From the IMG/VR virus record IMGVR_UViG_3300045996_001676, positions 1-60,793 of that record: DNA of 60,793 nucleotides, one strand, 5' to 3'. A program made the translations under genes and the position numbers. Numbering within the stretch: position 1 is the stretch's first letter; every line of letters begins with the position of its first letter. Of the stretch, positions 26,675 through 60,793 are shown in pieces. The DNA comes from a virus. The notes beneath the pieces were generated by a model. It was given only the letters and a program-made list of their open reading frames with translations. It was not told the origin of the DNA and searched no databases.

Positions 26675-26905
26675 ATGTCTGACTTTTTCTCACCGCGCGA
26701 ATACCGCGAGCTCTTGGCCGATTGGTCGACCGGCCTCCAGTTCATTCTTGACCTACATACCGCAGCTGGATTGCCTACAGATCAGAGGCTCGCATCGCCG
26801 CAGCTGCTTTGCTCGACGATCCACGCGCAGGCCATCGCCGCAAAAAAACTTACAGAAGTGCAGAGGCAGCAGGCCTATACGACAATCCGACAAAATAATC
26901 CTTGA
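26675..26905 (+). CDS. Small helical hypothetical protein
   Basis: A 76-aa helical protein (FSPREYRELLADWSTGLQFI, then LCSTIHAQAIAAKKLTE). No domain recognised. It ends at the -35 of the next promoter (26902), closing the recombination unit. Confidence 0.6.
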   Translation: MSDFFSPREYRELLADWSTGLQFILDLHTAAGLPTDQRLASPQLLCSTIHAQAIAAKKLTEVQRQQAYTTIRQNNP

Positions 26906-26929
26906 CCACCTCTGCTTTGGGTGTACTCT
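26902..26929 (+). promoter_or_regulatory. Promoter P7 for replication genes
   Basis: TTGACC (26902-26907), 16-base spacer, TACTCT (26924-26929). The predicted start (~26936) falls on the first base of the pseudoknot stem. The spacer has GCTTTGG, only faintly like half of the early operator. Confidence 0.6.
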
Positions 26930-26934
26930 GCTCA

Positions 26935-27088
26935 TGTGCTCAACTCGTCACCAAAAAGGGGAGTCGCATCTCCCCACAAAAAATATGGTTGTTCCGTGTT
27001 GCGGTCATCTGGTTTCCCTCCCGGTGGATTTCACCCCCACCGCTCCCTTTTTGGAAATTAGTTGAGCACAACCCAGCACGGAACAACC
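26935..27088 (+). ncRNA. Pseudoknot leader RNA before the replication initiator gene
   Basis: Four blocks interleave. Stem A: 26935-26945 pairs with 27060-27070 (11 bp, perfect). Stem C: 26951-26960 (CCAAAAAGGG) pairs with 27045-27054 (10 bp). Stem B: 26987-27001 (GGTTGTTCCGTGTTG) pairs with 27074-27088 (15 bp, one G-U). B lies inside the A/C loop and its partner outside, giving an H-type pseudoknot. Hairpins 26958-26963/26970-26975 and 27022-27027/27037-27042 lie inside; the first competes with stem C. The SD is 13 bases downstream. A 43-codon frame (26934-27065) overlaps and could be a leader peptide. Likely a cis control of initiator translation or a small RNA. Confidence 0.7.
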
Positions 27089-27111
27089 TCCCTTTTCCTG
27101 GAGTCGTGGAG

Positions 27112-28248
27112 ATGCCGAAAACAGCTTATAAAATCCGGGGGTGGGATGAGTTATACGAAAACAATCGAACGCGCCGCATGAAATTCATGCAATGGATCCC
27201 CGTCCCCAACAAGCACGACGGGGACGGCTATATCCAGCTGGTCGACGGCCCCGAATCGGCCGAGATGCTGGGGGCATGGCTGGCGATCCTGCAAGTCGCG
27301 AGCAAGTGCCCAATACGCGGGAAATTGGTCCGCGGGAGCGGCCAACCCCACGACGCCGAGAGCATCTCAACTATCACCAGGATACCCGCCGAATCGATCC
27401 AAAAGGCGTTGGATAAATGCAGCTCCCGGGCGATCGGCTGGCTTGAAATTTTTACCCTTCCCGACGTCAAACTCCCCCCCGAAAAACACCCCCCAGGCAT
27501 ACCAGACAAAACCCTAGAAGGTCACGCGCGTGACCAGGATCGCGCACTCTCCGCGCACTCTCCGCGCACTTTGGGCGCACCCGACTGCCCAGACCCCTCT
27601 TCCACCCCCTCGAACGACGCGCAACTCTATGCGGGCGCAACAATAGCAGGCGCGTGTCCACCTCCGCGCACTTTGGGCGCACTCTCGGCGCACCCAACTG
27701 ACGAAGAACGGAACGGAACGGAACGGAACGGAAGAGAAAGAAAACCCCCTATCCCCCTTGGGGGGGAGCATGACGAAAACCAACCCGGGGAAGACGACGA
27801 CGGGGAGGTGAAGGATTGGCCAGCATTCCGCGCAGCGTGGGAGGCATTCGACCGCTGGAGTTTGTCGGCGACGAAATACCCGCTGCGCCTCGCCGTCGGG
27901 GAGGAGCGGCACGTTTGGAAATTGATCAAAGCCCTGAACGGCCAACCGCCGATTATTCACGGAGGGGCGCCAGTGCCCCAGTGCCTGCTCATCCCAAAAG
28001 CCGCCGATGTGCTCATGGCGAAATCTGTCGACTTTCGAAAATTGCCTTGGGCGTGCAAATGCGTTTTGAATCTCCTGGACGAGTGGGCGAAAACGGGAAT
28101 GAAAGATGCGCCGCCGACGGTCGACCGCTTCGGCAAGGCGATGGCACCGAAGACCGTCGACTACTCCGCGGAGCGCGCGGCGAATGAGAAATCCGCCCAG
28201 GAGCTCGGCGCCGTCATTTTCTCAAAACGCAAGGGATCCGCGTCGTGA
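27112..28248 (+). CDS. Replication initiator-like protein (lambda O-type position)
   Basis: A 378-aa protein. The start MPKTAYK is chosen because it follows GTGGAG and a longer frame would run through the pseudoknot. The N-terminal ~110 residues (WIPVPNKHDGDGYIQLV, then AWLAILQVASKCPIRG) resemble winged-helix replisome-organiser domains of phage initiators. The middle (~140-235) is low-complexity and encodes the iterons. The C-terminal domain (~240-378) probably contacts the helicase. It lies directly upstream of the DnaB-type helicase. Function is inferred from domain style, iterons and order. Confidence 0.65.
   Translation: MPKTAYKIRGWDELYENNRTRRMKFMQWIPVPNKHDGDGYIQLVDGPESAEMLGAWLAILQVASKCPIRGKLVRGSGQPHDAESISTITRIPAESIQKALDKCSSRAIGWLEIFTLPDVKLPPEKHPPGIPDKTLEGHARDQDRALSAHSPRTLGAPDCPDPSSTPSNDAQLYAGATIAGACPPPRTLGALSAHPTDEERNGTERNGRERKPPIPLGGEHDENQPGEDDDGEVKDWPAFRAAWEAFDRWSLSATKYPLRLAVGEERHVWKLIKALNGQPPIIHGGAPVPQCLLIPKAADVLMAKSVDFRKLPWACKCVLNLLDEWAKTGMKDAPPTVDRFGKAMAPKTVDYSAERAANEKSAQELGAVIFSKRKGSAS
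27520..27744 (+). repeat. Iteron clusters: candidate replication origin
   Basis: Within the initiator gene: a perfect 16-bp palindrome GGTCACGCGCGTGACC (27520-27535); four 11-bp iterons CGCGCACTCTC and variants in tandem (27541-27584); three more (27665-27697); five GAACG pentamers (27706-27730) running into a purine tract to 27744. The order palindrome, iterons, low-melting purine run, inside the gene of a DNA-binding initiator, is that of the lambda O/ori region. Confidence 0.65.
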
Positions 28249-29813
28249 ACGAGCCCAAGCGAAAATCTCTGCAACCCGGGGCCCCCGCCGCCACCCCAGC
28301 GCCGCGGCCCGCACCAAAGCCCCAGGCACAGCCCGCCAAGCCCAAGGCGACGACGGCACGGCCGCGGAAGGCCCAGGAGCCTCCAACCGAACGGACAACC
28401 GCCGATAGCGTCGCTGGCCTCCGGATCCCGCCCCACGATCTCGCCGCTGAGGCCGGAGTGTTGGGATCCGTGATCCTCGACCCGCAAACACTGGGCACCG
28501 CGCGAATGTTCATTCACTCGCCCGATTATTTTTTCAAAGAGGAAAACCGCATTATTTTCCGCGTGCTCTGCGAGCTGGAAGACGCGCGGACGTCGATCGA
28601 CGCGATGATCCTACGCTCCGCGCTTATAACGCTGAATCTGCTGGAAGTCGTGGGGGGTATCGAGTACATCGTCGAGCTCGCAAACGCCGTCCCCACCTCC
28701 GCGCACGCCGAAGCATACGCCGCCATCGTCGCCGAAAAATACAAGCTGCGCCAGCTGATTTCCGCCTGCACCGCCACGATTCGCGACGCATACGAAGAAG
28801 TGGACGTAAAGGGCGGCGCTGCGGCCGTTGTCGACAAAGCTATGGGGCGCATGTTCGAAGTCGCGGCCAGTAGCGTCAAAAATTTCCCGCGGCGCATGTC
28901 GGAAGTGATGCCCGATTACCTGGAGAGTCTGAGCGCCGCCGAACAAGTCGCGAGCGGCCTGCCGACGGGTTATACCGGCGTCGATCGCCTGCTCAACGGG
29001 GGCGGCCTCCAGAACGGCGAGTTAATCCTCATCGCCGCGCGGCCGTCGGTTGGAAAGACCAGCTTTGCAACCGGGATCCTGGAATCCGTCTGCATCGATC
29101 GCAACAAGCCCGCGGCCTTTTTCTCGCTCGAAATGGACGCCCGATCGATCGCGCAGCGACTACTCTCCACACGCTCCGCCGTCGATTCGAAGCGACTCCG
29201 GAAACAGGAGCTCACCGCGGCCGAGCGTGATCGGCTGGCCAGCGCCGCCGGTGAATCGTGCTGTCCGAATTGGTGGATAGACGACACTTCAAGTATTAGT
29301 TTTGTCGAGCTGCGCACGAAGGCGCTGCGCCTCCGTCAACAACACGCAATCGAGCTTCTGGTCGTGGATTATCTCGGGCTCATGGAATCGATCGGCGAGA
29401 ACCGGAACGACAACCGCAACGACGAAGTGGGGCGCCTATCGAGAGCACTCAAGGGCCTTGCCCGCGAGCTCCAGATCCCCGTGATTGTGCTCTCGCAGCT
29501 GAATCGAAAATGCGAGGATGAACAACGATCACCCCGCGCCAGTGATCTGCGCGACTCCGGCAACCTGGAGCAAGACGCCGACGTGATTATCCTCCTCCAT
29601 CGCGAGGCGGTGTATCACCGCGGCGATCCCATGTGGGCGGAGAACAACCCTGAACGCTTGCACGAGGCGCAGGTGATCATCGCCAAACAGCGCAACGGCG
29701 CTGTGGATGTGATCCAACTGCAATATTTCCCGTGGTGCACCCGGTTTGTCAATCTTGAAGAACCGGCCGCACCTGCCCCACTATACGAGGAATCTACGAA
29801 AGGCGGTGCGTGA
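28245..29813 (+). CDS. dnaB: DnaB-type replicative helicase
   Basis: A 522-aa hexameric 5'-3' helicase. A Pro/Ala/Lys-rich N-terminal extension (~1-55) precedes the DnaB N-domain (PHDLAAEAGVLGSVILD), the RecA-like core with Walker A ARPSVGKT (265-272), Walker B LLVVDY (371-376), and the H4 segment SQLNRKCE. GTG start overlaps the initiator stop (GTGA). The C-terminus ends in KGGA, the first of the repeated gene-junction motifs. Confidence 0.92.
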   Translation: MNEPKRKSLQPGAPAATPAPRPAPKPQAQPAKPKATTARPRKAQEPPTERTTADSVAGLRIPPHDLAAEAGVLGSVILDPQTLGTARMFIHSPDYFFKEENRIIFRVLCELEDARTSIDAMILRSALITLNLLEVVGGIEYIVELANAVPTSAHAEAYAAIVAEKYKLRQLISACTATIRDAYEEVDVKGGAAAVVDKAMGRMFEVAASSVKNFPRRMSEVMPDYLESLSAAEQVASGLPTGYTGVDRLLNGGGLQNGELILIAARPSVGKTSFATGILESVCIDRNKPAAFFSLEMDARSIAQRLLSTRSAVDSKRLRKQELTAAERDRLASAAGESCCPNWWIDDTSSISFVELRTKALRLRQQHAIELLVVDYLGLMESIGENRNDNRNDEVGRLSRALKGLARELQIPVIVLSQLNRKCEDEQRSPRASDLRDSGNLEQDADVIILLHREAVYHRGDPMWAENNPERLHEAQVIIAKQRNGAVDVIQLQYFPWCTRFVNLEEPAAPAPLYEESTKGGA

Positions 29814-39180: not shown

Positions 39181-39441
39181 ATGGGAGGCAGTGGCACTCA
39201 GCGGGTGAAACCGTGGGCGCGAGTCGTAAGAGACAAGCGACAGGCTCGGAAACCAATCGCCCCCGGCAGACGTGCCGGGCAGACAGAGGCCCGAAAACCC
39301 CGTCATTGTGCATGGTGTTTCGCCACTGCCTCCCACCAATCGGCGGATTGTTTCCGTCGCCGCACGAGAGAACCCCACACCCAGGCCATCGCCCGCGCCG
39401 CAAGAGCTGCGGGCAATGCCTCTATGGAGCTGATCACATGA
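39181..39441 (+). CDS. Small basic zinc-knuckle-like protein
   Basis: An 86-aa protein supported by its ATGA overlap with the next gene. It is strongly basic (VRDKRQARKPIAPGRRAG) with CAWCFATASHQSADC, a C-x2-C-x5-H-x4-C site one residue off the CCHC zinc-knuckle pattern, suggesting RNA or single-stranded DNA binding. No good SD is seen before ATG 39181. Confidence 0.5.
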   Translation: MGGSGTQRVKPWARVVRDKRQARKPIAPGRRAGQTEARKPRHCAWCFATASHQSADCFRRRTREPHTQAIARAARAAGNASMELIT

Positions 39442-60286: not shown

Positions 60287-60685
60287 TTACTGGCCCTGAA
60301 ATCCCATCGGCGTTCCCGTGGTTTCCGGTGCCGCCTTGTTGAGTGTTGCCGCCTTGCCCAGCTCCACGATCTTGCGATCGGCATCGGCCAGCTTTGCCCG
60401 CAGCTCCACGACGTCGTTGCGGAGGTTTTCCGCTTCGGTCGTTTTCCGCCGGAGAAGATCGATCAGGCGATCGGTATCGGTGTCCAAGCCGCCCGCCGGT
60501 GCGCCATACACGCGGGCATCGTTCGCGCGGAGCCGATCGGCGATACTCTTGGCGACGGAAACCTTGCCGCGCGTGTAGATCTTGCCGTCCATCACGTGAT
60601 CGCCCAGGAGCGTAATCTCGATGATCGGATCCTTTGGCGATGGCGCTGCCGTTGCGGCGGGCTGAGTTGGGGTGGGGGGTGGCAT
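60287..60685 (-). CDS. Coiled-coil head-region protein
   Basis: A 132-aa protein starting at MPPPTPTQ, SD GGAGGC. Pro/Ala-rich N-terminus, a central DPIIEITLLGDHVMDGKIYT strand region and a coiled coil (~75-115). It follows the capsid gene. Similar small proteins with 'G..Y..G.v..v....A..L' patterns are head-completion/decoration-associated; role unproven. Confidence 0.6.
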   Translation of the reverse strand: MPPPTPTQPAATAAPSPKDPIIEITLLGDHVMDGKIYTRGKVSVAKSIADRLRANDARVYGAPAGGLDTDTDRLIDLLRRKTTEAENLRNDVVELRAKLADADRKIVELGKAATLNKAAPETTGTPMGFQGQ

Positions 60686-60793
60686 AGCATTGCCTCCAGA
60701 AAATGGGTTGAGGGTAAACACTTATCGCCCAGAGGGTTTTTCCCCCTCTGGGCGATCATGTGTCTATCGTCAGACCCTTACAGAATCCCGCGG
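60685..60793. repeat. Right copy of terminal direct repeat
   Basis: Matches 1-109 with mismatches at its 7th and 20th bases. It contains the start region of the 132-aa gene and the capsid-end hairpin, showing that the contig closes on itself. Confidence 0.9.

Follow-up and report, generated by a model that had tools for sequence, protein, structure and literature searches.

Structured RNA leaders precede the replication initiator genes of several plasmids. In the ColIb-P9, IncB and IncL-M systems, the loop of a leader hairpin pairs just upstream of the initiator ribosome site to form a pseudoknot, and translation of the initiator is coupled to that of a short leader ORF. The IncFII (R1) tap–repA leader also has a short ORF translationally coupled to the replication initiator, and control there is exerted by the CopA antisense RNA acting on this leader (cited in PMC10724649). 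Pseudoknots before ribosome sites also occur among the H-type riboswitches and motifs of Rfam, such as SAM-II and preQ1-II. In the maturation-protein leader of the RNA phage MS2, the start is open only on nascent RNA, which limits the protein made per transcript. For a phage initiator, we found no description of a pseudoknot leader in the open-licence literature. Here, we analyse a 60,793-base virus record (this whole stretch of DNA is the window), which encodes a terminase large subunit, a tail protein, a DNA helicase and a replication module. Our results strongly support a pseudoknotted leader RNA ahead of the likely replication initiator gene, because many relatives of this gene keep the topology of the leader with changed sequence.

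The locus resembles ColIb-P9, IncB and IncL-M in having a structured leader before the initiator and a hairpin loop that pairs just upstream of the initiator ribosome site, both of which are seen in the window; many relatives, but not the window, also have a short leader ORF coupled to the initiator, as in these plasmids and in tap–repA. Unlike in ColIb-P9, IncB and IncL-M, the carrier is a phage, the initiator is unrelated, the stems are 8–19 bp long with abutting 3′ arms, and no sequence is conserved between relatives. A relationship to RepA/RepZ was not found, as 72,556 plasmid records gave no protein matching the window initiator. A search for an antisense promoter of the Inc/RNAI type gave no promoter-like site in the window and a site in 1 of 17 pseudoknot leaders, which also sets the locus apart from IncFII (R1). 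By analogy, the leader may work like the IncI/IncB repY–repZ switch, but we do not count it as a member of that group, because no antisense promoter was found, the initiator is unrelated and the window is without a coupled ORF. The IncB/ColIb-P9 comparison drawn in an earlier note on this DNA is thus retained as an analogy, through the coupled leader ORFs of relatives, and loses its antisense RNA. Unlike SAM-II and preQ1-II, the leaders here have no Rfam match or conserved ligand pocket, and their helices are longer; the MS2 leader, which has no such pseudoknot layout and no leader ORF, shares only the principle of the mechanism that we favour.

Interleaved stems ahead of a candidate initiator gene

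The features of the window leader and the genes that follow it are given below.

26902–26929, + strand: weak sigma-70-like promoter candidate read from the sequence, TTGACC (26902–26907), 16-nt spacer, TACTCT (26924–26929)
26934–27065, + strand: 43-codon open frame, a weak leader-peptide candidate
26935–26945, + strand: stem A, 5′ arm, TGTGCTCAACT; 11 perfect pairs with 27060–27070
26951–26961, + strand: stem C, 5′ arm, CCAAAAAGGGG, nested in A; 10 perfect pairs (26951–26960/27045–27054), 11 with one G-U
26958–26975, + strand: local hairpin GGGGAG-TCGCAT-CTCCCC, arms 26958–26963/26970–26975; 4-nt overlap with stem C
26966–26973, + strand: GCATCTCC, perfect 8-nt complement of the start-codon region GGAGATGC (27108–27115); this pairing is present in the minimum-free-energy fold
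26987–27001, + strand: stem B, 5′ arm, GGTTGTTCCGTGTTG; 15 pairs with 27074–27088, one of them G-U
27022–27042, + strand: hairpin CGGTGG/CCACCG (arms 27022–27027/27037–27042), in the loop between the 5′ arm of B and the 3′ arm of C
27044–27054, + strand: stem C, 3′ arm (pairing check)
27060–27070, + strand: stem A, 3′ arm, AGTTGAGCACA (pairing check)
27074–27088, + strand: stem B, 3′ arm, CAGCACGGAACAACC; ends 23 nt before the initiator start
27100–27103, + strand: initiator Shine-Dalgarno GGAG
27112–28248, + strand: candidate replication initiator gene, 378 aa, ATG at 27112; weak PF09681 match, relatives
28245–29813, + strand: DnaB-type replicative helicase gene (PF03796, E 2.6e-83); 4-base overlap with the end of the initiator gene

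A sequence check of the window leader confirmed the three stems at the positions first reported, with stem C gaining a G-U pair. The pairing interleaves, because the A/C loop contains the 5′ arm of B, whose 3′ arm follows stem A after 3 nt. The local hairpin at 26958–26975, previously described as a competitor of stem C, is likewise present and overlaps that stem, and the two states suggested in that description are possible on anatomical grounds; followed by TTTTT, it resembles an intrinsic terminator on the minus strand, inside the leader. Several relatives have a hairpin in the loop equivalent to that of 27022–27042, between the 5′ arm of stem 2 and the 3′ arm of C (across the family, stem 1 denotes A with the nested C, and stem 2 denotes B).

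Other parts of the leader are less firmly placed. The earlier note had set the predicted start of promoter P7 on the first base of stem A; the window promoter falls below the threshold of consensus promoter scans, and its weak boxes, if real, predict a transcript start at about 26935–26937, the first bases of stem A. The ribosome site does lie downstream of stem B, at a spacing of 11 nt rather than the 13 nt first given; it is a good Shine-Dalgarno site and is left open by B. The 43-codon frame, which had been put forward as a leader peptide, is weak in this role: it has no Shine-Dalgarno sequence, its first base lies no later than the predicted transcript start, and 47 nt separate its stop from the initiator ATG.

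We accept 'initiator' as likely, though not proven, for the gene at 27112–28248, because it has a weak PF09681 (phage replisome organiser N) match, an overlapping DnaB gene and internal iteron-like repeats. The PF09681 match is sub-threshold, appearing in 5 of 13 family members with a best E of 0.00034. The iteron-like 11-bp repeats (CGCGCACTCTC and CGCACTTTGGG variants) span 27541–27693 within the gene and are followed, still inside it, by a GAACG repeat at 27706–27733; together, these repeats are a candidate replication origin, and their position is the one to be expected of an origin inside this gene. In the relative L002, another repeat occupies the same position within the initiator gene. 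At the ends of the contig, 1–109 and 60685–60793 form a 109-bp direct repeat of 98% identity with a 13-bp inverted repeat ATCGCCCAGAGGG, and the window genome may be complete with terminal redundancy, though it is classed as linear.

The interleaved arrangement is highly improbable by chance. The A+B pseudoknot scores −50.1, against −24.9 ± 3.1 in shuffles (z = −8.1), and none of 3,000 shuffles was as good; likewise, none of 2,000 dinucleotide shuffles of the 216-nt region had three stems of at least 10 bp. Among 3,030 overlapping 200-nt windows covering both strands of the whole 60.8-kb contig, the pseudoknot site ranks first. The second-best interleaved stem pair of the contig, at 39182–39345, includes a 14-bp inverted repeat TGGGAGGCAGTGGC. 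Consistent with the earlier statement that the element matches none recognised, zero Rfam families match the window at the gathering threshold, and a relaxed threshold gave chance-level matches only; on 11 related loci, Rfam returned one tRNA elsewhere and nothing at the leader.

A two-state switch of mutually exclusive hairpins, stems 1 and 2, could take the place of a pseudoknot in which both form at once. Folded as a nested minimum-free-energy structure, the window leader would suit such a switch, as it retains B and loses A and C, and so would the competition of the 26958–26975 hairpin with C. Against it, the three stems have no bases in common, the loops, of 41 and 58 nt when measured from stem A, have sufficient length for all of them to form together, and the abutting 3′ arms of A and B are what stacking would lead one to expect and are needless for alternatives. 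We consider such a switch unlikely.

Recurrence of the topology with changed sequence

Direct DNA and protein searches with the window initiator gave no match in phage, plasmid and viral collections. Relatives were recovered by N-terminal motif patterns in viral and genome contigs, with profile confirmation, yielding about 60 distinct initiator upstream regions. The window initiator is 59% identical to that of L002 and matches the family profile with an E of 3e-45, a value that is not independent, as the window is a seed member. In the host phylum Verrucomicrobia, the gene was found in 1 of 388 sampled genomes, the one already known.

The pseudoknot layout occurs, with unrelated sequence, in about 15–17 of the roughly 60 upstream regions. 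The first leaders viewed by eye (L002, L009, L011 and L026) had interleaved stems and no sequence in common with the window. For each member, the 180–200 nt ahead of the gene were searched for their best interleaved stem pair, which was scored against shuffles. The scores split into a high-scoring group, which comprises the window, L059 (z = −9.7), L026 (−9.6), L022 (−8.0), L038 (−8.0), L069 (−7.0), L037 (−6.2), L002 (−5.5), L040 (−5.0), L051 (−4.8), L011 (−4.0), L036 (−3.7) and L061 (−3.3), and most other upstream regions, which lie near zero; the layout is weaker in L061, L074, L009, L029 and L055. Upstream regions of other genes from the same loci served as a control and reached z < −3 in 6 of 240 cases and z < −5 in none. 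The starting leaders were found by gene, and 17 positives were then picked by score and eye from the approximately 60; the G-U/A-C, promoter and leader-ORF counts refer to these chosen 17, and the other statistics to the whole set or to explicit controls.

In the shared order, a promoter precedes stem 1, whose 3′ arm comes after the 5′ arm of stem 2, often with a small hairpin between these two arms; 0–6 nt further on lie the 3′ arm of stem 2 and then the start codon. Stem 1 is often in two parts. In most leaders, 0–3 nt separate the 3′ arms of the two stems (up to 6 nt were permitted in the search), and in clear cases the initiator starts 13–37 nt past stem 2, the family limit being about 40 nt past its 3′ arm. 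L035 and L058 were not counted despite high scores, as about 100 nt separate their second stem from the start, and stem 1 of L061 was not trusted, as a TATAAT box lies after it, which leaves only stem 2 for that leader. A clear promoter was found in 6 of the 17 pseudoknot leaders and in 3 of 42 other upstream regions. The window has both of the features that define the family, the layout and a homologous initiator gene downstream. Directly upstream of the initiator leader of L068, there is apparently a tRNA-like sequence (GGTTCGATTCC...CCA).

Presence of the layout goes with the absence of a long upstream ORF: high scores were found in 13 of 27 leaders without a long coupled upstream ORF and in 2 of 33 with one (p = 0.0002; ORF classes tallied by hand). 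More than half of the relatives have the same gene without the pairing, an outcome that the earlier note had listed as contrary to its proposal. We read it as absence of the element and not as counter-evidence, because in most of these relatives the preceding gene extends into the initiator and a separate leader is absent.

Stems, loops and junctions showed no sequence conservation across the leaders, most of which have no alignable sequence. The alignable trio L022, L040 and L069 has common GGAAGC/GCTTCC and ACAG/CTGT arms with matching spacing, and the pairs adjacent to these anchors covary: C-G becomes U-A in stem A, stem C shows G-U/C-G/A-U and C-G/G-U/U-A, and stem B is wholly re-paired with other sequence. 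In L047, a near-copy of L069, the lone difference disrupts one pair in stem 2, with no compensating change. The collections searched contain no close relative of the window leader, and the window's own stems are supported by their improbability and by the family layout, not by covariation. The claim of a pseudoknot leader before the initiator gene, first made from the window alone, is strongly supported by this retention of topology with different sequence.

Two further explanations, both of which we ranked low, are addressed by these comparisons. The first is that the element acts as DNA, as a secondary-structure origin or as paired binding sites. Its location in the replication module would suit this, as would the occurrence of inverted repeats in DNA too and the good folding of the antisense strand. 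The element is, however, tied to initiators with a short or no coupled upstream ORF and sits between promoter and start, and the iteron-like repeats that may mark an origin are inside the gene instead. Helix interruptions in the 17 chosen leaders comprise 11 G-U and 4 A-C, an excess that gives mild support to sense-strand RNA. To a DNA-level element we give a very faint chance.

The second is feedback, in which the initiator protein or a host factor would bind the leader and repress initiator translation. Replication initiators are commonly autoregulated, and the element lies directly before the initiator gene. Such a site should keep some bases unless the pairs co-evolve, yet no stem, loop or junction sequence is conserved, and we give feedback a slim chance.

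Leader ORFs and the initiator start

Among 16 pseudoknot leaders with an initiator start that reads ATGA or TTGA, 12 have an ORF of 31–50 codons ending on that start, where shuffles expect 1.46; the pseudoknot overlaps these ORFs. The encoded peptides are dissimilar to each other. In L040, L011, L022 and L059, the 5′ arm of A or C lies, by eye, over the start or Shine-Dalgarno sequence of the leader ORF. The window has no ORF ending on the initiator start, which distinguishes its 43-codon frame from the leader ORFs of relatives; its frames stop 47–53 nt short, and the initiator has its own Shine-Dalgarno sequence instead. L026 resembles the window in this respect.

The initiator start is buried beyond shuffles in L061 (z = 6.5), L037 (z = 5.7) and L069 (z = 3.9), and stem 2 runs over the start in L037 and L061. 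Burial of the window's own start region does not exceed that in shuffles (z = −1.7, in a test that runs from −160 and omits most of the 5′ arm of stem A). General burial of the start was therefore rejected as a family rule, being strong only in these three and not in the window; the comparison of pseudoknot leaders with others gave p = 0.08, with L047, the near-copy of L069, among the others. Extension of stem 2 to the start was also rejected as a general rule, as it is not significant in the window or the group, L037 and L061 excepted. The 8-nt complementarity between 26966–26973 and 27108–27115 is a possible cover of the window's initiator start, and shows no excess over chance.

These data also bear on an activating role, as in ColIb-P9, IncB and IncL-M, in which initiator translation would require stem 2 just ahead of the ribosome site, and an antisense RNA, or translation of the leader, would prevent or permit formation of that stem. 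The order of parts is equal, from the hairpin through the relatives' leader ORF to the loop pairing just upstream of the initiator start; the window Shine-Dalgarno sequence, open beside stem B, would suit activation, and the terminator-like minus-strand hairpin at 26958–26975 is a place where an antisense RNA could end. Antisense promoters are nevertheless no more frequent in the pseudoknot leaders than among the other upstream regions (4 of 42), with none in the window; the stems are far longer than suits easy switching, and the fold covers the initiator start in L037, L061 and L069. We leave an activating pseudoknot a minor but appreciable chance.

Proposed mechanism

We favour a reading in which the folded leader RNA acts in cis as a gate that restricts initiator synthesis, and consider it about as probable as not. 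The initiator mRNA would begin with the leader, in which stem 1 (A with nested C) and stem 2 (B) would fold as a pseudoknot, setting a rigid helix directly before the initiator translation start and, in some relatives, over it. Folded, the leader would hold initiator translation low; initiation would succeed on the nascent leader, or when a passing ribosome opens the stems. In most relatives, this opening ribosome would be one that reads through the 31–50-codon leader ORF and terminates precisely at the start of the initiator. In the window, the effect may be steric or may run through the 8-nt complement, because start burial does not hold there. We infer formation of the pseudoknot in the cell, an action on translation and a lower protein yield from the folded state, as well as an opening route in the window phage, which is without a coupled ORF. 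As conservation is confined to topology and position, the element would be mechanical, setting helix against ribosome and folding against translation, rather than one that recognises a ligand by conserved bases.

A broader proposal, to which we give somewhat less than an even chance, is that these leaders represent an undescribed and widespread class of phage leader RNA, in which a self-closing pseudoknot conserved in topology only, usually acting through a coupled leader ORF, meters the initiators made per transcript without antisense RNA, ligand or protein partner. Lineages would rewrite the stems, leaving sequence-based searches blind to the class.

Conserved-sequence searches can miss real RNA elements, and a search anchored on the initiator gene and combined with a shuffle test finds such leaders. 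The dose of initiator sets when and how often the phage genome replicates. A leader that recurs by topology across divergent environmental phages would be a mechanical control of this dose, and would link the copy-number switches of plasmids with phage replication.
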